The position numbers and the translations under genes are program-made. Source: Piscicola geometra (lineage: Eukaryota > Annelida > Clitellata > Hirudinida > Piscicolidae). From it: a stretch of DNA of 64,000 nt. The stretch spans positions 2,738,011 through 2,802,010 of the forward strand of contig OX030966.1 of NCBI GenBank assembly GCA_943735955.1, given 5' to 3'. The notes beneath the pieces are model-generated. The model was not told the origin of the DNA and ran no database searches. It was given only the letters and a program-made list of their open reading frames with translations. Below, piece by piece: positions 145 to 48,010 of this stretch (the stretch's first letter is position 1; each line of letters starts with the position of its first letter).

Positions 145-1152
145 CATCATCTCCGTAGTTTAAATGCATCCATTTGGTGACAGAGAAGGCGATGATGACG
201 TCATACTCTGACATCACTGTTGCTAAGCAAGCCTCGTCGTCAGGCACATAGTTGGCCTGTGGGAGTGATGAGGCAGTAGTTGATGGTGGTTGGGAAAGAT
301 TGGGAGAAGTGTTATAATATGAAATAGTAGAAATACATTTTCAATATTAAAAAAGAAATATTGTTGTTGGAAAAGTTTACAGTTCGTGGAGACAACTACA
401 AACCTGGACAAAAAAGATTTTGCGTGTTGAAAACTCTGGTTTTTGATGGTTCAAACTCATATCAGCCTCCACACCACCTTGCAACTTCTTTACTCTGTTA
501 TCTGCATCATCAGCTTTTCTCTTGACGCCTCGTGAATGCTTGACTTTTGTGAGAGACTGTTTGGCTGCATGGATCAAGCGCCTGTCAATGTCGACTCCAA
601 CTACCTTACTTGGATGGAATCTCCGAGCTATGTCTACGGTCACCTGAGTGTAGCAAGGATTGCTTAAAAGTTCACAAAGAAATAAACTTTTAATTTAAAA
701 GTGAACAGTAAAAACGTATGCCAAATCAAAATTTGATAATTTATTTGAATGGAGTCATGACGGTCCTCAAAGCAAATGATTATGATGATAGAAAGCACCT
801 TTCCTGCATTGCAGCCCACATCGAGCACGTCCTTTTCCTCGAACCACTCTGCCTTCATCAGTTGCAGCCTGCAGTCTAGAAGGTCTGCACTGCAGCATCT
901 GTAGCCGTAGTAGTGCTGGTAGTTGCCGAAATGGGCGGTGAATGTGGCTGATTTAGTTGATGTTGCTTGTGGAATGATTTGAGTTGAGATTTTCTTCGTT
1001 GGTGAAGCTTCTTTTTTGTCTTCTGAAGCGTCCACAGAGAACTCAGCGGCGGCTTTCTCAGCTCCTTGTTCGCAATAAACGTCAGATTTGAATTCATTGT
1101 CATGTCGAAGCAAAATGAATTCATGATGGATATCTTTAAACTCTGGTTTCAT
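145..1152 (-). CDS. MEPCE: 7SK snRNA methylphosphate capping enzyme (MEPCE/Bin3 family), 5' part, cut by window edge
   Basis: Three coding exons read right to left: 799-1152, 404-643 and 145-256. All junctions are GT-AG and stay in frame (phase 0, phase 0, then a phase-1 donor leaving the window). The 118-codon first exon carries the family signature [11 protein letters not shown] and the SAM-binding motif [11 protein letters not shown]. The second starts [20 protein letters not shown], the motif-II region that binds the adenosine ribose, then RLIHAAKQ. The third gives NYVPDDEAC and the catalytic-core stretch [13 protein letters not shown], equivalent to LTKWVHLNWGDE of the human enzyme. Known members methylate the gamma-phosphate of 7SK (and related) RNA in the nucleus and stabilise the P-TEFb-inhibitory particle. 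The Lys/Arg/Asp-rich linker between motif II and the third exon is a variable loop in the family. The C-terminal third lies outside the window. No frame damage is seen. Confidence 0.9.
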
Positions 1153-1905
1153 TTTTCTAGTTGAGAAGAATTTGTGAAAAGAAGTTGAGAAATACGTTTA
1201 AATATACGTTTAACAGTTAAACTTTAACTGTGTAATTTATAAAAATGGCTTAAATATGAAATACCTAAACTTCTTTCCATATGAAAAGCAAATATCAATT
1301 TATGTATCAATTTAAGACTCTTAAAGTATAAAACAGGTTAAATTACACTCTCACGCCTTTGCTATGTATAAAGTAAACTAAAGTTTAAAATAAGCTTTAA
1401 AAGTGAATTCGAGTATAAACTAAAATCTAAATAGATTTTTTTTGAAAATAATTTAATATTATCTTATTGAGATTTTAAAGATATTTGTCAAATGAAATGA
1501 ATTTTTTAAATTATTTATTAATAGTGTATTAAACTTGCAAAAGGGATTAAAATATTAAGACCATTTTAGAAGTTTTTTTCTTGAAGATTTGTGAAATTAT
1601 ATTTAAATGACGTCACAAAACCATAGACACATTATCCATCTGCATGCATAGATAAAGTAAAGAATTAAGTACGATAAGCAAAAAGCACTCACGAAATGTT
1701 TTAAAATTTAAAGTTTTTCAGTTGTGAAAAAAGTTGAAGAAATTTGATCAAGTTCTGTTGACGTAGTGTTGAAGGGGTGCGTGCAGAGAAAGGTGCATTA
1801 ATCTTTGGCATTTTGAAAAAATCTGAGAAAAATTGAAAATTGAAGTTGAAAACACAAAATGAAAAGTGCTGTGAAAAGATATTTCGAAGGTGGTGATCAA
1901 ACATT
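1153..1905 (-). other. probable 5'UTR intron and exon of the MEPCE-like gene
   Basis: Directly upstream of the MEPCE start codon is a good acceptor (a pyrimidine run ending ..CTCAACTAG) with the exon edge at 1156. A consensus donor GTGAGT lies at 1687-1692. Joining them puts an in-frame TAA four codons before the ATG at 1150-1152, which supports that ATG as the true start. The upstream exon would then be non-coding and contain a short upstream ORF beginning near 1812. This is inference from splice signals alone. Confidence 0.3.
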
Positions 1906-3305: not shown

Positions 3306-6300
3306 TCAGGAGATGAGGCAGTAGCAGTCGTTGACTTCTTCCACGGGAGGCAGCATCGGTAGCTCATCGCTAGGTGGCTCGGTGTAAGATCCGTCTAAGT
3401 AGACGCTGTGGGATGGTTGGTAGGAAGGTTGGTGGAAGGATAAGTGGGGTTAACATTATTATTATCATCAAGCGGGCGCGGATAAGAGGTCAGAAGGTTT
3501 TTTTATTCCGAGGCACGTTTGTGAACGTTGGGATAGTTGTTGGGATGACTGGTCGGATGGTTAGAGAGTGGGTTGATCGTTGGTGGGGTGTTTGTTTGGA
3601 TGGTTGTTTGGATGGTTAGTGGAATGGTTAGTGGAATGGTTAGTGGAATGGTTAGTGGAATGGTTAGTGGAATGGTTAGTGGAATGGTTAGTGGAATGGT
3701 TAGTGGAATGGTTAGTGGAATGGTTAGTGGAATGGTTAGTGGAATGGTTAGTGGGTTTTTGGAATGGTTGGTGGGTTTTTGGAATGGTTGGTGGGATGAT
3801 TGGAAAGATGTTAAGAGAGAAGTTTGGTTGGATGTGTGAAGGAATGGTTGGGAAAATGGTTTGTGGAATGGTTAGAGGGATGGTTGGTGGGTTGTTTAGT
3901 AGGATAGTTAGAAGGAGAGTTAGGAAAATGGTTGGTGGGATGTTTAGCAAGATGGTTGAAAGGATGGTATGAAAAACTGGTGCTTTTTTGGTTGTTAGCG
4001 TAATAGGGTTATTGGGATGCAGTGTTTGGTTTGATATAGGAAGTTTATCTAGTTGTGAACTATTTGTAAGGGGGTAGTGAAGTTCAAGTGGCTTCAATTC
4101 TAGTGTAAAGTCAAAACACATTCATCTTTAACAATTTCGCCAGCACTAGGAAAACCTAAAACTTCACTTCCACTGCTCCACCAAACAACCATTCTTCCTA
4201 CCAAACTACCCCTTCCTTTCATCAAACAATCTCTATTCTCACTAGACCACTTTTCCCTCCACTTAACTCACCGCAGCAGCTGCACCTGCCTCACTGCTCC
4301 TTCTCTGGCCACTCTGGGCGACAAACATGAAGTCTCAGCACCATCTTGTCTGTTCCAAGCCATCCTCAAGGGGTGACTAATCGTCTCAACGTTGATCACT
4401 TTGCGGTCTGTGCGCAAGTAAAGTAAGGGGGAAGAGGAAAAATAGAGAAAAGAAGAAGAGAGGGAGAAAGAGAAAAAAGGGTAAAGAGTGGGAAAAAAGG
4501 AAAACATGATAGAAGAGTGGAATATTGATTAAAAAGAGATGAAAGATACCTTAAAATATTTAATTGTCTAAATTTCATAATTTTGGGACCTAACCATTTA
4601 AATGAAAAATTTTAAAATTTGTGAAAATCTTTTTACTATAAAGTTTTATTTTAAAAACGCTGAAACATTGAAGTGAATTATGATGTTGTTTGTTCATTAG
4701 TTATTGGATTTTCAAAACCCTCTGTTGGGAAAAATCTAAAAGTATGTTTTTAAATATAATTTTCAAAATCTTTATTACACGGATCAATTAATGGCTGAAG
4801 AAAATTTAAAGATTTGTTTCTTTAAATCAAAAGTGTCTAAAGATTAGTTTTTTAAGTTAAAGATAAAGAGATTGTAGGTTCGCACCGATGCGTTGCAGCC
4901 AGGCTCTGAGTCGCAGCCACACAGAAGAGAAGCTCTCATATTCTGGAGAACCCGTGCACATTCCTACCTGTGATGGTGGTAGTAGAGATCGCTGTGGTGG
5001 TGTCAGTGGTGATAGAGCTGGGATGCAAGTGGTTCAAGTGCTAGTATTAGTTATGGTGGTGGTGGTGTTAGTGATAACAGTGGTAGTAAGGATAATGGTG
5101 AGGATGAAGTAGAAGTTTAAAAAGGCTTTTGTTTTTTTGGGAATTAAAAAAAACTATTTAGTGTTTTCATTTTTAAGCCTCAAAACATTATTTTTATTTT
5201 TCATTTCAAGCTTCAAATCTTTCTCAGATTGTGGTAAAGGTTGACCTTGATGACTGAGGGGATGAACGTTTTGTAGGTGAGGTCGGAGGGTGTTCTGTAG
5301 AAGGCCCTTCTGGCTGCTCCACTCACAGCGTCTGTTGAGTGGGAATCCATTGGAGTTGTGAGTTTTCAAAATTAATTTAATAAATTAATCAAGTTGTTTT
5401 GATTAATTTAAGCAGTTATTATTCAAATTAACCTAATTAATGTCAGTTTAAATACATTTTTCGTTCATTTTATGTCTCATTTACTTTGCTTTTTACAATC
5501 AATCCAACAATCACCATCCTGCCAACGACCTTGCGTCGATAAGGCCACTGGGCTCTCCTCGTCCCACGTGACCTGACCATTGGCCGGTGGAAAGGAGGAT
5601 GGCGGGATGGATGTGTAGTTGATTCTGACGTAGCGGACTTTCCAGTAGCGATGTGAGTTTCCCATGAAGTTTCTGCCCGTCCTGACGCTGTCTGGTGTTT
5701 GGAGAGGGGAAGAGTTGCATGCTGTGAAATGATTGAAAGTAGTTACGATAAAAGGATATTATAAGTAACAATGCCACAAGGACTTAAACTGCACCAAACA
5801 CCGCGGAAAAAATTCCTAGTTCAAAATCCTTGCTTAAAAATTGATAATGAAATACAGCATTACACAAGTTGAAAATGTGAAATGATGGGAGTTACAAGTC
5901 CAGCAGAACCTGTTGATTGTTTGAAGATGGTCTCGAGGGTCTGTACATTAACTATGCGAATGTTTCTCACCTGGAGATTATTATGGTAGTGGTGTTGTGG
6001 GGGTGTTGTAGTGGTGTATGTGGTTGTGGTGGTGTGGTGGTGTGGTGGTTGTGGTGGTGTGTTTTTGGTGGTTGTGGTGGTGTGGTTGTGGCTGTAGTGG
6101 TGTAGTTGTGTTGTGGTGGTGTGGTTGGGGTTGTGTTGTTGTTGTGGTAGTGTGGTTGCTATCGTGGTAGTGTGGTTGCTGTGGTGGTGTGGTTGTTGTG
6201 GTGGTGTTTTTGAGATATTGTTGTGATGGTATTGTTTTGGTGTTATTGTGATGTTGTGGTAATCTTGAAGTGGTTTTGTGATTTTGGGATGGTGTTGTGG

Positions 6301-6670
6301 AGTAGTGTCGTTGTAATGGTAATGTTGTTGTGGTGTTGTTGTAGTGTTGCTGTGGTGGTGGTGTTTCAGTGGGACGAGCACCTCTTTTGTCCATTTAGAT
6401 GCTTTGTAAAAGGCGTCTGATAGAGGTTTGAACCTGGTGGAGTGGGGGTGGTGAAGAAAGAGGTTGGTGAATGAAGATAACAATGTGAATGAATAAAGAC
6501 GGGATGAATAAAATATTATGAATGCAAGATGAATGAATGAAAAGATGATGAATAGATGACTAAAAATATTATTAAATGAATGAATGAAGCACCTGGGATA
6601 AGACTCACAGGCACAGTTGAGGCTTGAAGATCCAATGAAATCAGGCAGAAAGTCCTGAGCCCCTGAGAAG

Positions 6671-6727
<57 letters not shown>

Positions 6728-9066
6728 GAAAAATGATTCGATAGATGTTTCTTCATCGCTCACCAATTAACTCAGTTCTGAAGCAGCCGTAAACAAAAAA
6801 GATTCTAGTGATCAACACCAAATGATGTCGTCGGATCGTTTCAACTGCCTGTGGTGTAGTGATGCGTGGTGTAACAATTAGTTGTGTGCTTAGGTGTGGT
6901 AAGTGTGGCGTGTGGTATAGTGAAGTGTGGTTCGGTGAAGGGTTGTGTGGTGAGACGTGGAAGGGTGTGGTGAAGAATGATAAAAGTCAGATATGATTTG
7001 GTGAAATTCGGCGTTGTGAGATTTAGTGTGGTGAGATGTGGTGGAGGGAAATCCGGTGTTCTGAAATAAGGGATAGTGATGTGGTCAAGTGTGATGGTTG
7101 GATTACGTGTGGTGTGAAGGGTTTTGGAGTGGTGCGGTATGTTGAAAGGTTGTGTGTTGTGGTGTTGTGAGAGGGTGATGTGGTAGGGAGTGATTAGCTG
7201 TGAGGTGGATATTTTGGGATGTGGTAGGTGTGGTGGGATATGGTATGTTGTGATGTAGTAGGTGTGGTGGAGTATGGCACGTTATGGTGTAGCGAGACTA
7301 AGGTGACTTAGTGAAATTCATTGTTTGAAAATTATATTAAATTATATAGTGATATGTATTTGGTGAAGGGTAAATGATGTAGTAAGATATTGTGTAGTGA
7401 ATAAAATTTGCAACAATATTCCATAATTTAATTACTCTCTTTACTCCCCCATCTCCCATTTTTTTCAACCATTTGCCTTCTACCTCCGATTTCATTCACC
7501 ACTTTTTTATTTTTTATTTTCACCCCTTCTTTTATTTTCACGTCTTTATAAATTCCGACCCACCTGAAAAGTAACATCAGGATCGACATCCGAAGCGTCC
7601 CAAGAATTAACAGGAGTTCTAATCGGCAGAGTTTCAATTGATAATATTTTGCCTGCAAGAGTGGAGTGGAAGATTGAAAGTGAAAATGTGGAATTAAACG
7701 GTTAAAAATAGATGGCAGTTTGCAAGGTGGTGGGTTGGGTTGTAAAGGTTGTTGGTTGAAAATAGATGGGTAATGGGTTAGAAAGTTGAGAAGGTAGTGG
7801 GCGAGAATAAAAACAAATCAAGTGTAAAATAATTAAAAACAAATGAAAAATAAAATCGTCAGGTTAAAAAAACACCAAAACGCCACAAACACCTTGGAAG
7901 TTGGTTTGGAACATGTAGTTGTTGATGGCTGCATACGTCTCAGGCAATTCCTCGTAACGGGGTCTCCTGCGGTCAGTGTCGTGACATTTTGGAACCACAT
8001 TCAAAAAGCCAATCGAGATTGATTTGTCTTCGTGGTGGTTTCGGAGAGAATTTTCGCTGTTTGGTGTTTGATTGTTTAGATGGAACTCTTCTTGATCTGT
8101 CTGTTGTTGTTGTTGTTGTTGTTCTGTGTCTATGTTGTCTTCTCGTTGTTCCGAATGTGTTTCTAATTGTTGTTGTGAGTTTTGTCGTGAGTAGGAATTT
8201 TTTAGACTGCTGTTGCTGGTGTTTTTGATGTTGCTTTTTTGATTATCGTTTTGTTGTGGGCGTCTGAACACACACCACATTCTGGTGGGGTTTGTACAAT
8301 TGATTACTATCTTTGCCTCTACAATGTTTGCGTACAACCACCGATCACGTGCCACTCTACAAAAAGAAGATATCAATATACCACGACAACCACACTACAC
8401 CATTCTAGACTACACCACTCTAGACCACACTACACCATTCTAGACTACACCACTCTAGACCACACTACACCATTCTAGACTACACCACTCTAGACCACAC
8501 TAATCTAGACCACAGTACATATCAAACTACATCACCTCATACCGAACCACAACATTCTAGACTACATTTAACCACACATAACCTCACTACATATGACTCT
8601 TCATTACTTAAAATCACACCATCATACCTCTTTAGACTACACCACACCACACCACACCGACTCCCACTACAGCACACAAAACCACAAATGTCCACTCAAC
8701 GTCACAATACCTAAGGCCTCTGACAAAGAGAGATGAGTGGGGATTGGCGGGTAGGTCAGTCATGAGCGAGTCATTATCGAGGTCATTTAAACAGGTCAAC
8801 TGGTGTGGGAAGGAAGTGGTGAGATAGTGGAAGGAATGCTTAAGGTGGAAGATGATTATGAAATGGTAAAGGGGGTTAAAAATGAGAATGTAAAACTAGA
8901 AAAAACAATTAAAAGAAAAAGTGGGCTAAAATAGAGTTTTGATTGATCAAATGAATGGGAAACCTTCCTTTCAATCGTCTCACACTTGAGAACGTCCATG
9001 TCAGGCTTGTCTTTCAGCCAGGCATTTACCCGAGGCACCAGTGTTCTGCGAAAAATGTTGATGACA

Positions 9067-9151
<85 letters not shown>

Positions 9152-10092
9152 CGATGATGATAATGATGATGATGATGAAGGTGGTATAAAGAAGACTCTT
9201 CGAGAAGAAGCGACTACACGAAAAATTCATAAAATACGCTATAGATCCTTCCATAGATCTTTCTTATTAGTTTTTCTCTGAAAAATTTCATTTTCCAAGA
9301 CAGGTTGTCCCAAGTGAGGCAGATTAAACATCATGACGTCGTAAAGTATTCCATGGCAACAAGCCTAAACCATTCAAAATGAAATTAATATTTAAAAGGT
9401 TGAATGTATTCTTTTAAAAAATTCTTAGTTTATTACTGGAAGATGAAAGCTTAGCAAAACTGCCAAATATTTCTAATTGCTCAATGTTTACCCTCTAATC
9501 ATTTTTGGAAAAAAAATTCTAGAATTTTTCATATACAATTTATGAGTTTTTACATTTTTGGAATATAAAAAAAATCTTTTTTATTCTTTCCACTCTTGCA
9601 ACATCGTTTATTGAAACCATCTTCCACCACTCTCCTCTATCCATCCACGTTTGTTGGTTTATTTTTCAGCCAACTCGCCAACTAACAGTTTTTACCAATC
9701 CGCTCATTAATCAACTCATTCCAGCCTTTCTCCAACCATCCTTTTTTTATCTATCCCTATCCCCTTCCATTCATCATCTTTTCCAACCACCTCTAACCTA
9801 TATATTTTCAAACCTCCTCTCACCTTCCTCCAACCCTTCTCCCAACTAACTCGAATGATGTGAATTCAAGAGCGGCCACTTCAGGTTCGTCAGGGTTGAG
9901 GCATTCAGGCCAGAAATCTTCGATCAGCAGACGTTCATACTTCTTGGTGACTGGCGAAGGGGGCGGATGGTTGCGGTAGTAGGAAGGGGTACGCAAGGCG
10001 CCCATTTCCATTCCTCCTTCCTCTCCCTTCGTCTCGCTCTGCTTCTGCTGCATTGTACGCCTGCGCAGTGTCGACGCCACTATCGCTGCCAT
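3306..10092 (-). CDS. Unrecognised protein with four tandem modules and a C-terminal CaaX box, 14 exons, 609 aa
   Basis: Exons, right to left: 9851-10092, 8964-9045, 8711-8799, 7893-8356, 7564-7652, 6764-6848, 6593-6662, 6382-6433, 5910-5970, 5530-5721, 5246-5331, 4886-4967, 4272-4407, 3306-3405. All 13 junctions are GT-AG, phases match throughout, and the total is 1830 nt including TGA. An in-frame TAA precedes the ATG. The product repeats one module four times, at about residues 77-150, 272-350, 375-445 and 513-585. Each opens with an aromatic residue followed 13 positions later by W or Y (FTSF..W, YEEL..Y, FKPL..W, YESF..W). Each continues with a strand motif (VLKCETI, ILSIETL, IVNVQTL, VINVETI) and ends in a hydrophobic/Arg motif (FVRGLRV, LITRIFFV, KVRYVRI, QLLRVYL). 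Modules 1 and 2 are separated by an Asn/Gln-rich linker with eight consecutive Gln. The C-terminus is C-Y-C-L-I-S: CLIS is a farnesylation-type CaaX box with a second Cys two residues before it, suggesting a lipid-anchored cytosolic protein. No signal peptide or membrane segment is seen. I do not recognise the family and assign no biochemical activity. Confidence 0.8.
3611..3790. repeat. 12-bp minisatellite
   Basis: About a dozen near-perfect head-to-tail copies of GGAATGGTTAGT, followed by diverged copies (GGAATGGTTGGTGGG) to about 3970. It lies in the last intron (3406-4271) of the four-module gene. Because 12 is a multiple of 3, every frame stays open through it, producing spurious ORFs. 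Confidence 0.9.
5980..6380. repeat. Intronic GTGGT/GTTGT-type low-complexity tract
   Basis: Imperfect GTGGTG/GTTGTG repeats fill the intron between exons 8 and 9 of the four-module gene (5971-6381). The His/Thr-rich open frames here are repeat translation; only 5910-5970 and 6382-6433 at the flanks are credible exon. Confidence 0.8.
6674..6726. repeat. (GAT)n microsatellite
   Basis: About 17 perfect GAT units in the 101-bp intron between exons 6 and 7 of the four-module gene. The repeat occupies about half of the intron and comes within about 12 bp of the exon 7 acceptor. Confidence 0.9.
8390..8510. repeat. ~35-bp tandem repeat in an intron
   Basis: Three tandem copies of a unit containing CATTCTAGACTACACCACTC, in the intron between exons 3 and 4 of the four-module gene. 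Shorter related words (ACCACAC, TCTAGAC) continue to about 8650. Confidence 0.8.
9060..9180. repeat. (GAT)n microsatellite
   Basis: About 35 GAT units with a few interruptions, in intron 1 of the four-module gene. The array starts about 15 bp from the acceptor of exon 2 (exon edge 9045). Confidence 0.9.
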
Positions 10093-11295: not shown

Positions 11296-11479
11296 GTGTT
11301 GATATTATATGTGCCTTTTAATGTGTATTTGGTGATTACATGTGTTTGTATTTTGCGTTTTTGTACGCATGAGAACGTCTATTCTTGGATGTACGCGTGG
11401 ATTCACTCGAATGTGTTTGTCTTGAGGTTTGGTGTACAGTTCCTTGTACATGTTTCCCTACGCATCTACATATTTGTGG

Positions 11480-11820
<341 letters not shown>

Positions 11821-11859
11821 TTTGAGTGTGAGTTTGGATGTGTGTTGAATGTTTAAAAA

Positions 11860-13535
11860 AAGTGTTTCACTACAAGTTTCTAGTTAGGACGCGTTCTATC
11901 ACAATCCTTCCAAATAAATAAAAAATACAGAAAATGTTTGACAACACCTATCCAACATTTTGGAAAACCAAGAAAAAAGATAAATTATATATACGTTAAA
12001 ATAAATTCATTTAATAAATATTTTTATTGAGAAAAGCTTTTAATACTTACTTCAATGTGGTTATTTTTTTGTTTTAAACATTAATTTAATCTATACTTTT
12101 AACATCAAAAATTGGGCAACTGTCCTTGAATTATCATAACCTTACCCTTTTATTATAAGTAGTTCGTTGACCAGGTTCTAAACTTTTTTCAAAAGAGTGT
12201 TTTAAAATTGTATGAAAAAAAAAGTTGTAAAACAAATATTTTGTTAAATAATTGTTTGCACAAACAAACAAACAAATTTTGGGGTTAAAAAATAAAAACC
12301 TCTATTTATGCAAAACTATGTTTTCTATTTTACTATAAATACAAATTAAATTGTATTTGATCGAGAAGGTTTTTACATTTTTTAAGTGGGTTGCCTAAAT
12401 TTTTCAGATGTAATTTCTATTTTTTCCCGGGTGGGTTTTTTCTTTTTTTCAGGACTAGTGAGTAATCGAGTGAATTGTCTAGATACAATTAAAACGATTC
12501 TCTACTAACCCATGCGTCCAAGCAATCAAACCCACCAATCAACTCAACCATCCATTATTCGAATCAACTCTGTCCTGTTTGAGCATCCAAAAACATAAAT
12601 TGAAGTAGTGCACCATTTTAATGCTTTTCTCTCCATTTATTACTCTATGATCATGAGAATGATGATGATTATCTTGTCTATCTAGCATTTTTGTACCTTC
12701 TTTTTACGTACTTTCATTACTCTTTCGAATAATAAAGTAACCTTATCATATACTTGCAGCAGTAATCAATTAAAGTCCTATTGTTCTTATTCTTAAAAGG
12801 TTCCTAACTAACTTTAGTTAATATTACGTCGTTCATCTATTGTGAAATTATTTGGTTATAATAATACTGTTGTTCGCTAATATACAAGTATAGATTTATT
12901 TATCATTTTATATTTGATTATACTATTTTGTTTTAATAATAATATTTTATTTTTATGATATTATTTTATTTTTATGATATTATTTTATTTTTATGTATGG
13001 ACCTATCGCATGTGCCAGCCAATGCACCACTAAAGTATGTGTCTATGCGGCTTTTTGCAATATTTATGTGATCCCTTTTATCGCTCAGTGCAACATTTCT
13101 CTATTTTGTGAAATTGCATTTTTTTATTTTAATTTTATGTAGGTGTAGTTTGGGTATGTGTGTTCTATGTATGAGTGGTTGTGTGTGTCCGTGTAGTCTT
13201 TGTATGTGTGGTTGTGTGTGCCCGTGTTTTTAACTTTTTGTTGTTGTTAATTGTTCTTAAAACTATTGCGTTTAAAATTTTGATAATTGTCATAAAATCA
13301 AAAGCAACAGCAAACAATGCTTTCTGGTGAGTAATTTGGCGCTAAAACTTCGCGTTCGTCTCATCAGATCCATTTTGAGTTTTCAGCTTTCATTTCAGAA
13401 AAGGCTCTCCATCTACTAAATGTTTCTCCGCTTTAATACTACTTTCAATTTAATAGACAATTATCTTATCATTAGAGGAAACATTAACATCATGTTATCC
13501 CTATCTTTATATACACTTTTTCAACATTAACGATA
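11860..13535. other. AT-rich intergenic sequence, nothing coding seen
   Basis: No convincing exon. A short tandem TTTTATTTTTATGATATTA occurs at about 12940-13000, and a few GTGTG words at 13150-13230. Confidence 0.4.
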
Positions 13536-18256: not shown

Positions 18257-20107
18257 TCATTTGTGGCTCAAAAGTGGAATAGTAATAATTTCTTCAGAGT
18301 TTTCAAAAACAACATATCCACTTTCACCATTTTCAGTTTCACTGCCACCTTTACCTTCACCATCAATAACTTCAACTTCACCCCCGTTCCTATTGCCATT
18401 CTTTTCTCTTACACCGTCCGTTTTTTGTGCGAAAAAATCTTGTTGATTCAATCCTGTCTTTCCCAATTCCTCCTTCCTCTCCTTCGAATCAAATTCATTT
18501 ACTTCATTAGTCGACTTCTCTAACGCTTTTACATCCAATTTCATTCCTTCTCCAGTGCTTTCAGCATCTTCAAAATTTTCTTTTCTTTCATTTTTAATTT
18601 CAATATTATTTGCATTATTTATTTTATTATTATTCCCAGTGCTTATTTCATTTTTATTCGCAGTTTTATTTTCATTTTCTCTCTTCTTGATGCTTCCACG
18701 TGAACCATTTACTTTCTCATCATTCTTCATATGAATCGCTTTATCACTGAGTGACACGCTGCAGTTTTGTCTATCTGCACAGTTCCAATCATGCAAGCTC
18801 ATCCTCTCTGGATGCTCCAGAGAAGCCTTGCAAAATTCGGGATCATAACTTTTTTTGCTTTCCCTCACTGTACCCCTTCTTTCCTTCTTTTCACAACAAC
18901 CACAACAAGACAACAGTCTATTTCTCCCATCCTCAAAGCCACTTCTATTCATCCCGCCACACATCTTTTTCAACATCACCAGCGACTCTGCTCTGAACTG
19001 GGCACCAGTCAAAAGGTAGAAAATAACGTTACAGGCGTAGTGGGAAGCGCCCAACTCTTCCACCACCACCCTGACGTTCCAGAAGTTGAGAATGTACTGC
19101 CATTCTGGATCTGAAGGGATAGCATGCAAGGGCAAGCAGGATTCCAAAGAAGGGACCATCACGAAGAAGAAGGTGACAGGAAGGGTGGAAACAATGTAGA
19201 AGAAAGAGACGAGGAGGAGGGTGACTGTGGTGGCAGAGTTTGAGGTCTGACCGGAAAGTTGGTGAGAGAGGTTGCGTTGCTGTTTGTTGGCTCGTTTGTT
19301 GATGCGTTGGATTTCTACAATCACTCGGATGTTCAGGAGAGTGATGGCCAGTGGAACAACCGCAAAAGCTTGTATCTCTGAGAACCAGGTAAATGCATTG
19401 CTGATGGTTTTATTGAGAAACCCTCTGATATTGCATTGACGACTTTCAGGGTCATATTGCCAGTTGTAGACTTGCCATGAGTGCAGTAAGAGAGTATAGA
19501 GAACCAGAAAAGAGATCACGATTAGGTTGCGCTTCATGGTGCAGTACTTGTCTCTCTGGTACGGATGGCATATGGAGATGTACCGCTCAACCGTGAAAGC
19601 AAGGATAAAAAACGGACTAAGATACTGAAAGGTGTAATAAACCACAGGGAAGAGCTCACATATGACTGGGTAGTTCAACACCCCTGTTTCCCAAGCAGTA
19701 TTCAACTCTGCGAAGACGAAAAATAAAAGAAAAAAAAAGTCGTTGAGAGCGAGCGCTGCCAGGTAACAGCCCGACGAAGGCCGCATGGGCCGTCGAACCC
19801 AAACGAAGAACGAGAAGAGATTTCCCGGGAAGCCGATGATGAACCAAACGATGGAGAAATAGCGGTCGATTGGCGTCATGGAGGGTCGGAGGAGGGTGAG
19901 GACAGTGTTGAGGTCGCTAAAGTAGTTGCCGCAGAAGGTTTTGTTGAAGTTGATGGTGCTGTTGCTGATGTAGTTGTTGCTGTTGTTGTTGCTGTTAAGT
20001 GTTGTGTTGTTGGAGAAGAAGTCGCTTTGCAAGATGTTGTTGTGGAAAGTGTTGTTGTTGAAGGAAGAAGATGGTGGAGTCATGTTGCGGGGAATTAACA
20101 AATCCAT
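18257..20107 (-). CDS. Class A (rhodopsin-like) peptide-type G protein-coupled receptor, intronless, 616 aa
   Basis: One uninterrupted frame. The Asn-rich N-terminus has several N-glycosylation sequons (NNTF, NNTT, NSTI, NKTF). Seven hydrophobic segments lie at about 83-105 (GFPGN of TM1), 114-134 (LALND of TM2), 150-178, 194-213, 240-266, 293-318 and 354-369. Cys150 and Cys225 can form the TM3-ECL2 disulfide. The TM3 end is ERY at 174-176, then ISICHP. TM5 has VVPLAI and TM6 has STLP in place of the usual CWxP. TM7 reads NVIFY, with the NPxxY proline missing. The C-tail of about 240 residues is long and hydrophilic, rich in Asn, Lys and Glu. The layout resembles invertebrate neuropeptide receptors of the FMRFamide/TRH-receptor-like group, but ligand and subgroup are not determinable by eye. 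The start ATG at 20105-20107 precedes the glycosylated N-terminus and needs no upstream exon. Confidence 0.85.
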   Translation of the reverse strand: MDLLIPRNMTPPSSSFNNNTFHNNILQSDFFSNNTTLNSNNNSNNYISNSTINFNKTFCGNYFSDLNTVLTLLRPSMTPIDRYFSIVWFIIGFPGNLFSFFVWVRRPMRPSSGCYLAALALNDFFFLLFFVFAELNTAWETGVLNYPVICELFPVVYYTFQYLSPFFILAFTVERYISICHPYQRDKYCTMKRNLIVISFLVLYTLLLHSWQVYNWQYDPESRQCNIRGFLNKTISNAFTWFSEIQAFAVVPLAITLLNIRVIVEIQRINKRANKQQRNLSHQLSGQTSNSATTVTLLLVSFFYIVSTLPVTFFFVMVPSLESCLPLHAIPSDPEWQYILNFWNVRVVVEELGASHYACNVIFYLLTGAQFRAESLVMLKKMCGGMNRSGFEDGRNRLLSCCGCCEKKERRGTVRESKKSYDPEFCKASLEHPERMSLHDWNCADRQNCSVSLSDKAIHMKNDEKVNGSRGSIKKRENENKTANKNEISTGNNNKINNANNIEIKNERKENFEDAESTGEGMKLDVKALEKSTNEVNEFDSKERKEELGKTGLNQQDFFAQKTDGVREKNGNRNGGEVEVIDGEGKGGSETENGESGYVVFENSEEIITIPLLSHK

Positions 20108-22900
20108 TATGAAGAGTTGGTGCAGATGATGATGATGGTGCTAACAATAAGAATGTTGATGATGATAATGATGTTAACGATGAAGATGATGATGATTCCA
20201 GTTGATGGAGAGTTTTAATTTCGACTGCTGGGTGCTTTATCGGGTGTCGTTAAGAGCTCTTGTCGACTGAATGAATTGGAAAACTTTAATTATACTCGCT
20301 TTTAAGATTTATTATAAAAAAGTTTCTAAAAAAAACATTCAAAATAATAATGGTAATTTTTTTAATTCTTTTTCTTCTATAAAGTGGATCTTAATTTACA
20401 AGGTGAAACCATTTTAAAACAACATAATGACTTTTGTTTAAGAGTTTAAACTGGCTTCTGCGATTGGAGTAATATCTCAAGTTTATTATTGCCTTGTAAG
20501 GAGTAATTGCACGCTGGAAAGTCCCGGCAGGTAATTCGTTTTTGCACTTGATAAATTACTTTTCTGGGAATTATTAAATAGGCTATTTCAGTCTAGATAA
20601 ATGCTAAGAACACGCTAGAGACAGCAGGCAGTTTTCAATGGATTGTGTTTCGTTAATCATCTCAGGATCGCTCTGCGGGGTATTCTTTTGGTGTTTTAAT
20701 TCATCGTGCTTTCAACGAGTCTCAGCGAGCACTGTGCGCCTAGATCCGATTAAACATGCAGTCTATCCGGCGTCCTTCAAAGCATCCTTGGAAGCAAAAC
20801 GAAGGAAGTTTATGGGAAGTAGTTCAAACAACTTTGTCCAATGCAGTCAAATGACCATCACTTCCCTCGTTCCATATGTTTAATTTAAGAAGTGTATGTT
20901 TTTGTGTGTGTGTGTGTGTTTGTGTGTATTAATGTGTATATTTGTGTTTGTATACGTACCCCTCACAAATATACCTCGGGAAAAAACTAATGCCTTCCAC
21001 GCACGCAGAGGCTATTAAAGGGAAAACCCTCATTCGGCACAAAAGAGAGAAGCTCTTTACAAAGGTTGAATCCATTCGTGCTTAAATTTCGTACATTTTT
21101 TATTCATGGCGATAATTTATGGGGACAACAGAGTTTAATTCACGGGAATTTAAACAGAAAATCAAAAAGTTTTAAATTATTTTTCTTGATTCTACTTCTG
21201 AGAGTTTTGCTCAAACCGCAATTTTGAAAACAAATTCTGGGAAATTTTTAGGTGAAATTTTATAACAACAAAAAAGTAACACTTTTTGAAGTATAAAGTT
21301 GTTCATAAGGTTAAAATGTAGAAAAAAATACTTTTTCGATTATTGGATTTTACAATATGTTGCTATAACTCATTCCAAGTCATTTTATTTTTTAGAATTT
21401 TTTTTGACTTCAAGTTCATTAGATTACAACGTTTTACTTAAATATTTTAGAACATGAAAGGTTCAAGCACGAACTTCAAACTGCAATTTTAAATTTTATT
21501 AAATTATTTTTTTCACTATAATTTCATCAACCCAATTTTTAAAAATCATATTTTTTGTTTTAATTTTACCCACCTTCAACCATGTCTTTGGTGTGCACTA
21601 TAACGGGATTCTTTCTGAAATTCTCTAGTTTTATCGAGCTTTTTTACTTCAAAAATATTTTTTTTTCGATACATTTTTTCCCCAATTTGTTAAGATTAAT
21701 TTTTCTATAATTTAAAACACATTTTCTCAATCATAGGTTGATTTGGATGAATTTAACTTCATCGTTTGTCATCCGAAGACTGGTGAGTTAAAGGGAAACT
21801 ATTTAGTTTTATTTCAAGTTTTTCCTCATTAGTTCGTCTAAAAAAATCTAACAATATTTTGCCAACGGTTTCAATTGGTTCATCTAGTATTATTGTTTTT
21901 TACGCACATTTATTCCAATGAAGATCTTAAACATCTTAATAACAAAAGGCTTCTCTGACTACAAACTGTTGGTCTCAAAGTGTCAACTGGCCAAGCCTCT
22001 TCCTGCTTAAAAAAATTTCAAGTAAACGTTGAAAACTCTTGGTTAGAGCAGAGTTTTCTTGACAGGTTCGACTGTCTCTTGTCTAGCACCAACTTTGACC
22101 TATTTAATTTTTTTTTATTTATATCTTTTTTATATAACCAAATGATCTTGAAGTTTGTCCGGGTTTACGTCACGTTAATAATATCCGTCTTATTACTGTA
22201 TTTTATTGTATCGACCTCCCCTGACCTCACACACGAGGTCCCTTCTCTTCTTTCAATTTCACCCACCATGCCTTTCCAACCTCCCATACCATGTCGTCTC
22301 TACCCTCATTTCACCCACCATGCCTTTCCAACCTCACATACCATGTCATCTCTACCCTCATTTCACCCACCATGCATCTCTACCCTCAGATACCATGCCC
22401 TTCCCCCTCCTTCCATTCACCCACCTTTCCTGCTCACGTATCAAGAACCAACAGGTTTAAGTGCAAAACTTTAAGCTCTTCAATCTTCTTCAAGCTCAGT
22501 TCACTATTCACACATCCAGTCGTTTTCATTGACCAAAAAAATCAAAGTTTTTATTGTTATTTTTAATTATTTTAACTTAACTTTTCAAGATTCACTCTTA
22601 AATTTTCTTCACAGTAAAGGCGTTTGCGACATTCTGTTACACTTACACCCATTTCAATGGCACGCCTTTTAAATCCACAGAATCTCAAGACAATAACGTT
22701 TTATTTCTTTATTCTTTCCCCACTACTCAACAGCTTTTCTAGATTGACGTTTTGATCGAGTGGGTTTTAATCTCTCAACTTTTTCTCAATTTCTCAAACA
22801 TGACGAATCAAATTTGAAATTTTTGTAGAATATTTTCAACAATAGCAACACCTTTGAATAAAAACTCTAAATGTAGAATTTAAAAACTAGAAGAAGTTAA
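20108..22900. other. Upstream flank of the GPCR, intergenic
   Basis: GAT-rich words at 20125-20195, then AT-rich sequence. A GC-richer island at 20640-20880 has an open plus-strand frame but no splice signals or family likeness. A SINE tail lies at 22147-22215. At 22240-22440 there are three imperfect copies of a unit containing TTTCACCCACCATGCCTTTC. Confidence 0.4.
22147..22215 (+). repeat. SINE 3' tail (conserved GTCCGGGTTTACG motif)
   Basis: Contains TTGTCCGGGTTTACGTCACG, then TAATAATATCCGTC and a TATTG-type tail. The same block occurs inverted at about 45835-45890 and 38535-38570, and diverged after a tRNA-like head at 44280-44470. A possible tRNA-like head (GGTTAGAGCAGAG, AGGTTCGACTGTC) lies at 22040-22080. 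Confidence 0.5.
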
Positions 22901-22974
22901 CAATCTCATTGAGAGCTGTTAAACGCACTTCACTTTGTCCCTCGGATCAGTCTTTCAAGCACTTCTATATATAC

Positions 22975-23505
<531 letters not shown>

Positions 23506-23519
23506 TATTATAAAAAAAT

Positions 23520-25175
23520 GAAATTAATAAAATTATCCACGGCGGAAGCTAGAAAGAAGAAACAATTTAAAAAGAGAATTGTAACAAAACAAAATACAAA
23601 CTAAGATAAACTTCAAGGGTTTCCGGGGGAAGAGGCTTCTTCATCGAGAATGCATCTCAAAACAATCAACTGCCAGTCATATTTTTTTTATTAGTTCGTC
23701 CCAAGCCACTTGATCAAAATTCTAGTTATTTTGATGTTTTACAAGTAGTATGTTATTATTATTATTATTAAGTATTTTATTTTTGAAATTAAAAACATCG
23801 ATCACCATTATTTCAGAAAAAACGCATTAATTTTAATTAAGAGTGACAAAACAAGTTTTAACATATCAGCATAAAAACGTTCACAATTTTTAGATTGAAG
23901 AAAACTAACGAAGCTCATTTACTTGTGCACTCAAAGATTCTGTTCCAAATCTCCATTATGAGTTCAGTCTTTCACTTAACTTTTTTGAGTAAAGAAATAG
24001 AAGAAGTCTTTTTTATGTACCAAGTACAAGATGTTCCAGAGTATACAAATTCAAAAAACTCTAGTTTTTAGCCATTTTCGTAACTAAAAAGTGTATGGGA
24101 GAGTGGCAAAATGAGACTTTATGTGTAGAGAAAAGTTTTATGGTGCTGTGGATGGAGGAGATGAAAACAAATTAGTGAAAGATTAAATCAATAAAAATGG
24201 CGTGTGTGAGAAAAATTTATCATTTTTAATTCAAAGAAAAAACAATTAAAAATTAAGCAAATGAATTTGTGCTTTTGAAAAACTGTTAATATTTTATTAA
24301 GGTTTTTTTATTTTTAAATGTTGGCTTCATTGATTTTATTTTTGAGATGAACAAAAGATAACGTGATATTGCAGCTGTATAAGAATGGTTGAATAAATTA
24401 TGAATGGTTTATTTCGTTTTCATTATTATTTTGCTCGGCATTGTTATGTCTTTGACGCGAATGAATGGTTCATGGCCTTTACTGTGCAAATTTTGAGTTA
24501 GAAACATGGGAAAATTAGATAATAAAAACAAAATAAAAAGTAAGGTAGAACCTTTTTGATGTTTTTGGAACCCCTGTTTTGATTTAAAAGGAAAAAAATA
24601 TATTCACTTGATTTTATATTTATTATAAATGGTTTTCCAAAATTTCAATAAGAGGTTTGCATTCATGATTATTATTTTATAACATTTTTTAAAGTATTAA
24701 TATTTTCACTGAAATATTATTTAGCTCAGTAGCATACTAATCAGGCTCCAAAATATTTTTTTAAAAGGAAAAATTTAAGAAAAAAGGCTGACTTTATTGA
24801 GTTTGAAGCTTTTTAAATAATTTTTTCACAAGATAGATACTATTTAAAATAAAAGTACAAAACGAAACAATTAAATAAAAAGTACTCATGCACAATGAAA
24901 ATAAGGATGTTTTTCTATCTACAAGTTCAAAATTCAAAATTTTATTTTGGGAAAACTATCATTTTGTGATGTGTTCCATAAAAACTCACAATCAAAAAAA
25001 TTTCATCGGAAAAATAATAGTTGAACTGACCCAACACGTTCAAAATGTGAGATTTTACTCTTTTATTGATTCTTATGACTACTGAGTGGTAGTAGGACCA
25101 GCGGTAAAACGCTAGGCGATCGTATCAGTATTAGGCGTTAGTACCAGTGCCTTAAGACGAGCCAATATAAAGATG
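23520..25175. other. AT-rich intergenic sequence
   Basis: No supported exon. The segment 25090-25145 contains a box A-like AGCGGTAAAACGCT and may be a degraded tRNA-related repeat next to the LINE fragment. Confidence 0.35.
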
Positions 25176-34140: not shown

Positions 34141-37775
<3,635 letters not shown>

Positions 37776-47424: not shown

Positions 47425-47570
47425 GTCTGTGTTGTCTTAAGTACTCGTTGTGGAGGGAGGGGAACTGGGTGAAAGATGGAATGGGTGGATGAATGACGGG
47501 AGAGAAAAGGGTGGGAAAAAATTGAATGGAGTGTTGAATGAAAAGGAAGCTAGAAAAGTGGTGGAGGAGT

Positions 47571-48010
47571 TGTGAGTGAGAGAGGAGTTGTGAGTGAGAG
47601 AGGAGTTGTGAGTGAGAGAAGAGTTGTGAGTGAGAGAGGAGTTGTGGGTGAGAGAGGAGTTGTGAGTGAGAGAGGAGTTGTGAGTGAGAGAGGAGTTGTG
47701 AGTGAGAGAGGAGTTGTGAGTGAGAGAGGGGTTGTGAGTGAGAGAGGGGTTGTGAGTGAGAGAGGAGTTGTGAGTGAGAGAGGGGTTGTGAGTGAGAGAG
47801 GGGTTGTGAGTGAGAGAGGAGTTGTGAGTGAGAGAGGAGTTGTGAGTGAGAGAGGGGTTGTGAGTGAGAGAGGGGTTGTGAGTGAGAGAAGAGTTGTGAG
47901 TGAGAGAGGGGTTGTGAGTGAGAGAGGGGTTGTGAGTGAGAGAGGGGTTGTGAGTGAGAGAGGAGTTGTGAGTGAGAGAGGGGTTGTGAGTGAGAGAGGG
48001 GTTGTGGGAT
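47571..48010. repeat. 18-bp minisatellite, about 24 copies
   Basis: GTTGTGAGTGAGAGAGGA units varying only at two or three positions (GAGGAG/GAGGGG/GAAGAG). 18 is a multiple of 3, so all six frames are open; none is considered coding. It would lie in the first intron of the Ig-domain gene if 47007-47424 is its first exon. Confidence 0.95.

Follow-up and report, generated by a model that had tools for sequence, protein, structure and literature searches.

What kind of protein is encoded by a gene of 14 exons that is built from four similar modules and ends in a CaaX box? The question is raised by the minus strand of one stretch of the genome of the leech Piscicola geometra (171 Mb in 66 contigs), the 64-kb window C12:2738011-2802010, which is the whole stretch of DNA analysed here and to whose first letter all positions below refer. 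The gene runs from 10092 to 3306. Its anatomy is nearly certain: the 14-exon frame is intact, the four modules are homologous to one another, the CxCaaX tail is conserved and the gene belongs to a multigene family. Below we describe the exons, the modules and the tail, and then consider what such a protein may do.

Exon structure and shared introns

The original prediction joined 14 minus-strand exons into a 609-codon frame ending in CYCLIS. That frame was reproduced exactly (10092..3306; 1830 bases, 609 residues and a stop), with GT-AG signals in 13/13 introns, matching phases, the first ATG at 10092, a stop codon ending at 3306 and the same C-terminus, CYCLIS; two of its acceptors, those of exons 4 and 10, turned out to be misplaced. 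The stretches VARDRWLYANIVEAKIVINCTNPTR (25 extra residues, exon 4) and ACNSSPLQTP have no counterpart in three aligned homologs, and acceptors at 8281 (exon 4) and 5691 (exon 10), 75 and 30 bases further on, keep the phase and remove both of them, giving a 574-residue product. Because the homologs are without both stretches and because the introns in question are common to paralogs, the true product is likely of 574 residues, not 609.

The paralog introns were placed for four loci of the same genome (C4, C9a, C6 and C8) by fitting each of them to the homolog P0002 rather than to the window gene, a match to the donor consensus earning a small bonus; the exon chains of C9a and C6 lack several exons. 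Eight of the 13 window introns match at least one paralog intron in P0002 residue and phase: those at residues 66, 94, 121 and 186 (C4), 242 (C9a), 303 (C4, C8), 387 (C6, C8) and 440 (C4, C6, C8). At 242 only C9a was counted because the donor assigned to C4 is implausible. The corrected acceptor of exon 4 is that of the C4 intron at residue 121, phase 2, and that of exon 10 corresponds to the C4 and C8 introns at residue 303, phase 1, which supports positions 8281 and 5691. The other introns were counted against sharing. Intron 283, before exon 9, lies two codons from paralog position 285 in the same phase; intron 216, before exon 6, is absent from C4, C9a and C6, which have one exon there; intron 265, before exon 8, falls within one exon of C4, C9a, C6 and C8; C4 has an intron at 335 in another phase where the window gene has 337; and intron 360 falls within an exon of C4 and C8 (C6 not placed).

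Exon 1 (9851..10092, like all exons on the minus strand) holds the start codon, a conserved basic N-terminus, MAAIVASTLRRRTMQQKQ, that is nearly identical in the relative P0001 (MAAVVASTLRRRTMQQKQ), and strand 1 of module 1 (EDFWP). Exon 2 (8964..9045) encodes the helix and strand 2 of module 1 (NAWLKDKPDMDVLKCETI), and both of its flanking introns recur at the same position and phase in C4; exon 3 (8711..8799), with the loop and the beginning of strand 3 (FVRGLR), is likewise flanked on either side by introns common to C4. The end of module 1, a Gln-rich loop and strand 1 plus helix of module 2 are in exon 4 (7893..8281 as corrected, with an earlier start at 8356). The Gln/Asn-rich loop between modules 1 and 2 (8023..8265) is much shorter in three aligned homologs. 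Exon 5 (7564..7652), whose preceding intron is common to C4, carries strand 2 of module 2 (KILSIETL) and a DVDPDVT loop, and exon 6 (6764..6848) carries strand 3 (ITRIFFVYG). Exon 6 was recognised through homologs; a 578-residue version without it (6848-6764) had served as the query for the Pfam scan of the window protein, the first protein search and the shuffles of module pairs. Module 3 follows with strand 1 (GAQDFLPDF) in exon 7 (6593..6662; preceding intron common to C9a), the helix in exon 8 (6382..6433), strand 2 (IRIVNVQTL) in exon 9 (5910..5970), and the loop and strand 3 (VRYVRINYT) with a linker in exon 10 (5530..5691 as corrected, earlier start 5721). Alignment with homologs places a linker and strand 1 of module 4 (YKTFIP) in exon 11 (5246..5331) and the helix in exon 12 (4886..4967). 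Strand 2 (KVINVETI), the loop and the beginning of strand 3 are in exon 13 (4272..4407), whose introns at either end match C6 and C8 in position and phase, and exon 14 (3306..3405), preceded by an intron common to C4, C6 and C8, supplies the end of module 4 (RVYLDG), a linker, the C-terminal CYCLIS and the stop. An open stretch near 9364 (CCHGILYD...) was tried as an exon and rejected, because the protein read across the junction that skips it can be aligned with the homologs. The last intron contains a short ATGGTTAGTGGA-like repeat (window 3600-3780).

The four modules and their fold

Each module has about 90 residues and consists of a DFxP-like strand, a helix ending in W/Y, an [EQ]T[VIL] strand, a variable loop and a last strand in which an Arg precedes a hydrophobic and then an aromatic residue. 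In the 574-residue model, module 1 spans residues 55-143 (8266..9930, exons 1-4), module 2 residues 225-318 (6786..8022, exons 4-6), module 3 residues 323-414 (5609..6773, exons 6-10) and module 4 residues 457-552 (3375..5284, exons 11-14), all on the minus strand. The pattern by which the modules had been noticed (an aromatic start, W/Y 13 residues on, then [VI][LIV]x[CIV][EQ]T[IL]) does occur exactly four times in the protein; in 20,000 shuffled versions of the protein its strand part matches 0.0019 times on average and never more than once, and an Arg-containing hydrophobic strand follows in 4/4 modules. The module itself begins about 20 residues before that aromatic start, with the DFxP/NVxP/TFxP strand. 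In the 13 rows chosen, the first strand always has its Pro and the last strand its Arg; in 24 rows both residues are nearly invariant.

It had been set beforehand that a profile of the module should find the other copies, and in the spliced protein it does so with both the tested module and the window sequence omitted: the leave-one-module-out profiles give E-values, for a search of one protein, of 6.6e-10 (module 1), 2.2e-6 (module 2), 3.6e-7 (module 3) and 2.1e-8 (module 4, where the match covers only part of the profile). Searched against the spliced 574-residue product, a family profile that excludes the window matches four times (E 6.5e-23 to 4.1e-16, again a one-protein search). When profiles that include the window rows were compared by hhalign, the six module pairs gave E-values of 4.7e-9 to 9.8e-5 as single comparisons, with an alignment of 50 columns only for modules 1 and 4, and in column shuffles of each of the six pairs 0/60 reached the observed profile-profile score. 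The window's own modules, taken from the 578-residue version, reached 0.044 or less against shuffles in 4/6 pairs. In an unspliced six-frame reading of the 64 kb, the best six stretches of the full profile are exons of this gene (E 4.7e-8 to 0.11); the module 3 exons are not among these six.

Several results weigh against this homology. The weakest hhalign pair, modules 3 and 4, aligns over 49 columns only with a probability of 58%. With the window sequence alone, modules 2 and 3 (0.63) and modules 3 and 4 (0.214) do not beat their shuffles, and the alignment of modules 1 and 2, one of the four pairs with low values, is out of register. The unspliced leave-one-out profiles do not place the exons of an omitted module 2 or 3 among their best eight stretches, apart from a single stretch that covers the beginning of module 3 in part. 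From the leave-one-out profiles and the six-pair profile comparison we nevertheless concluded that the four modules are homologous, in agreement with the internal duplication suggested originally. In modules 1 and 4 an intron interrupts the codon for the Arg of the last strand, both times in phase 2, which fits such a duplication.

The original prediction could put no name to the module, and neither can the libraries searched: Pfam, NCBIfam and PDB gave no significant match. In Pfam-A the window protein (578-residue version), P0001-P0003, P0005, P0006 and four pieces of the C9b paralog all stay below the curated cut-off; none of 24 modules matches Pfam at E <= 0.001 (the best is CBM39, 0.0028), no Pfam family is matched by more than 2/24 modules, and with the module profile no chain in PDB reaches an E-value below 0.2. 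No GTPase family is among the Pfam matches of the window protein (578-residue version) or of P0001-P0003. Folding of one tardigrade module predicted a strand-helix-strand-strand unit with a predicted local distance difference test (pLDDT) of 84.3 and a predicted template modelling score (pTM) of 0.70. The prediction comes from that single module of a relative, and full-length P0002, folded with three alignment rows, gave a pLDDT of 28.0, which is low confidence; both points count against the adaptor reading proposed below, and the full-length model was kept out of the fold searches. The same order of elements, beta-alpha-beta-beta, is found in dodecin, in Cse60/DUF4177 and in SHS2/GyrI-like folds, and the module's fold type, going by this model, looks common. 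No sequence relationship of the module to any of the three was found. The predicted module has no significant match among solved structures, the structural scores for dodecin and Cse60/DUF4177-type folds are at background level, and the absence of a GyrI/SHS2 entry from the structural match lists neither proves nor excludes a relation. The module could belong to a named domain family from which it has diverged beyond the reach of sequence methods; given that Pfam offers nothing at E <= 0.001, PDB no chain below E 0.2 and the structural matches no significance, we consider this unlikely. Another reading takes the fold as a guide to function. In GyrI-like (doubled SHS2) and dodecin folds, strand-helix-strand-strand modules pair up and bind a ligand in the groove between them, and the window protein could likewise be a membrane protein that binds small molecules or lipids in grooves between paired modules, its lipid tail only positioning it. 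We regard this as rather unlikely.

The C-terminal tail

The C-terminal CYCLIS (3309..3326) consists of the CaaX box CLIS and, two residues upstream of the CaaX cysteine, a second Cys. We compared it with other C-termini downstream of a module 4, 11 in all with that of the window; P0004, P0005 and P0007-P0011 do not reach the tail. The last four residues are CLIS in the window protein, CTVM in P0001, CTIM in P0002, CVIM in P0003 and CVIL in P0006, and among the paralogs CTLS (C4), CLLS (C9a), CQLM (C6), CKFF (C8), CVIA (C9b) and CHIM (C12b). The Cys at -4 is present in 11/11, V, I or L stands at -2 (the second aliphatic position, a2) in 10/11, and the last residue is S, M or A in 9/11. A second Cys lies at -6 in 8/11, namely the window, P0001-P0003, C4, C9a, C6 and C8, which make up the window's subfamily (8/8). 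C9b (CCVIA) and C12b (CCHIM) have it at -5 and C8 at both -5 and -6, so that 10/11 tails carry a second Cys at -5 or -6; P0006 has neither. The CaaX box read from the window alone is therefore not a chance ending. Two points tell against the reading proposed below: C8 ends in CCCKFF, an unusual CaaX, and no convincing CaaX ending was seen in the fetched stretches of C16, C8b and C6b, which possibly stop short of the last exon.

The window's CLIS fits the farnesylation rule (aliphatic residues, then Ser, Met, Ala or Gln as X). According to a passage of PMC9141697, the source of this rule, S, M or A as X leads to farnesylation and L, I or F to geranylgeranylation. The second Cys could be palmitoylated; alternatively, as in Ykt6, each of the two C-terminal cysteines could bear an isoprenoid, with no palmitate involved. 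The endings CCVIA and CCHIM of two divergent paralogs speak for such double prenylation, and a passage of the same paper states that Cys194 of Ykt6 gains a second prenyl group after the first and mentions its -AIM sequence (PMC9141697). The window protein and seven other tails of its subfamily, however, have C-x-C (C-C-C in C8), not merely adjacent cysteines. The cysteines of Ykt6 are adjacent (CCAIM), and we know of no double-prenylated CxCaaX protein. Double prenylation of the window protein is quite improbable in our view.

Gene family, neighbourhood and proposed function

A first protein search gave three relatives and a later one, with a trimmed alignment, 11 (P0001-P0011); for P0001-P0003 the E-values of the later search come from a profile that already held those sequences. 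The search was word-filtered, and the absence of other phyla from its results says little. Scans of viral contigs (36 pattern-matching stretches) and prokaryote genomes (35 stretches) found no relative. In the alignment of the modules no segment is conserved strongly enough to serve for scanning contigs. The near-full-length homologs P0001-P0003 are 42-45% identical to the 609-residue version. P0001 is an uninterrupted 522-residue frame on a 2,649-base contig, and since 13 introns interrupt the window gene along its 6.8 kb, this contig is probably a transcript. P0003, an uncharacterized protein of Capitella teleta (X1ZRJ1) that ends in CRCVIM, and P0004, a hypothetical protein of Helobdella robusta (HELRODRAFT_181005; a fragment with modules 1 and 2), are homologs with the same modules as the window protein; the Helobdella protein shows 72% identity with the C4 paralog but 42% with the window gene. 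P0005, the uncharacterized LOC129587036 of the tardigrade Paramacrobiotus metropolitanus, is about 25% identical to the window protein and has six recognisable modules in the order 1-4, 1, 2. P0006 has 424 residues, and P0007-P0011 are five further fragments that were omitted from the full-length alignments, a piece of P0007 forming one row of alignment A4. Two irregularities were seen in these records. In P0005 the fourth module is followed, about a dozen residues on, by ECVVIM and then by another module 1, so that the record may join two neighbouring tandem genes; in P0003, module 2 contains a 21-residue stretch without counterpart in the other aligned relatives that resembles a retained intron.

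In the source genome ten loci are recognisable: the window gene, C4, C9a, C6a (C6 above), C8a (C8 above), C9b, C12b, C16, C8b (L017) and C6b (L018). They come from a genome search with P0002, ordering of the fetched loci by translated search (tblastn), a second search and the module profile; C16, C8b and C6b are partial readings. The C16 paralog (L016) has, upstream of its module 1 DFLP strand, a proline-rich stretch with APPPYS, which we take to be a possible WW-domain binding motif. In a tree from a pieced alignment, which leaves out C12b and C16 (too few columns) and C8b and C6b, the window gene groups with P0001 (support 0.904) and C4 with the Helobdella protein P0004 (0.970); other supports range from 0.248 to 0.982. 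Identity between the window gene and P0001-P0004, C4 and C9a is 41-45%, against 49-72% among these six themselves. This faster divergence, the Gln-rich insertion and the intron before exon 6 missing in C4, C9a and C6 would suit a paralog in decay, with its long Gln-rich loop and additional introns; C6 and C8 have diverged to a similar extent. Decay is hard to reconcile with 14/14 open exons, intact splice signals, modules that are each found by profile and a CxCaaX tail that has been kept; we hold it to be very improbable. In open-access full text, searched by protein identifiers and by CaaX/prenylation, fold and annelid/tardigrade topics, no description of such a family was found among the papers listed, the topic listings being judged by title and opening of the abstract, with subscription papers and preprints lying mostly outside that coverage. 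We concluded from the sequences that this is a real gene of a multigene animal family, undescribed as far as these searches go, whose relatives are uncharacterized.

Elsewhere in the window, a long open frame at 18257-20140 (minus strand) contains a rhodopsin-family receptor domain (Pfam 7tm_1, E 8.4e-21), and an open frame at 664-1197 (minus strand), without a Pfam match at E <= 0.001, contains LDVGCNAG, presumably a methyltransferase motif. About 1 kb of near-pure trinucleotide repeat (35666-36724; poly-Thr, -Tyr or -Leu on the minus strand) adjoins a stretch that is ankyrin-like by eye. Long dinucleotide CA/GT arrays at 11336-11866 and 22930-23523 are open in several frames, and a short-period tandem array at 47437-48009 reads THNPSL/THNSSL on the minus strand.

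For the function we lean slightly towards a prenylated and palmitoylated cytosolic adaptor of four tandem modules that is held on membranes. The gene would be transcribed, as P0001 suggests, and its product presumably made in the cytosol, where the four tandem strand-helix-strand-strand modules of about 90 residues would form a cytosolic protein. With a farnesyl group on the cysteine of its CaaX box and a palmitate on the one two positions before it, the protein might then be kept on the cytosolic side of the plasma membrane or of endomembranes by the two-signal logic of H-Ras. The modules, side by side, would make a small array of sheets and helices with which the membrane-held adaptor may bind protein partners, and the paralogs may each have other partners and, because their tails differ, other membrane addresses. 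It tells against the word adaptor that its basis is the repeat architecture and the absence of a recognised enzyme family alone. The wider proposal, to which we give an even chance, is an unnamed animal superfamily at least as old as the annelid-tardigrade split, with ten or more genes here, whose beta-alpha-beta-beta repeats would make up peripheral-membrane adaptors with a Ras-like two-lipid tail. If it is true, a class of adaptors has been overlooked for the reason that the searched libraries name no member of it. A multigene, lipid-tagged animal domain family missed by those libraries suggests a membrane process outside the usual model animals, and the four-module profile together with the tail rule offers a direct way to find members and to trace the phyla that retained, lost or expanded it.

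In H-Ras, Cys184 is palmitoylated. According to passages of PMC10451275, H-, N- and K-Ras4A obtain their second membrane signal by palmitoylation of cysteines near the CaaX box; the passages give CVLS as the CaaX box of H-Ras and Cys181, Cys184 and Cys186 as its C-terminal cysteines. H-Ras thus likewise has a CaaX box with Ser as X and a Cys two residues before the CaaX cysteine (PMC10451275). The two proteins differ in what the tail carries: H-Ras has a GTPase domain, whereas the window protein is without one, and its body is made of four modules of a different kind.

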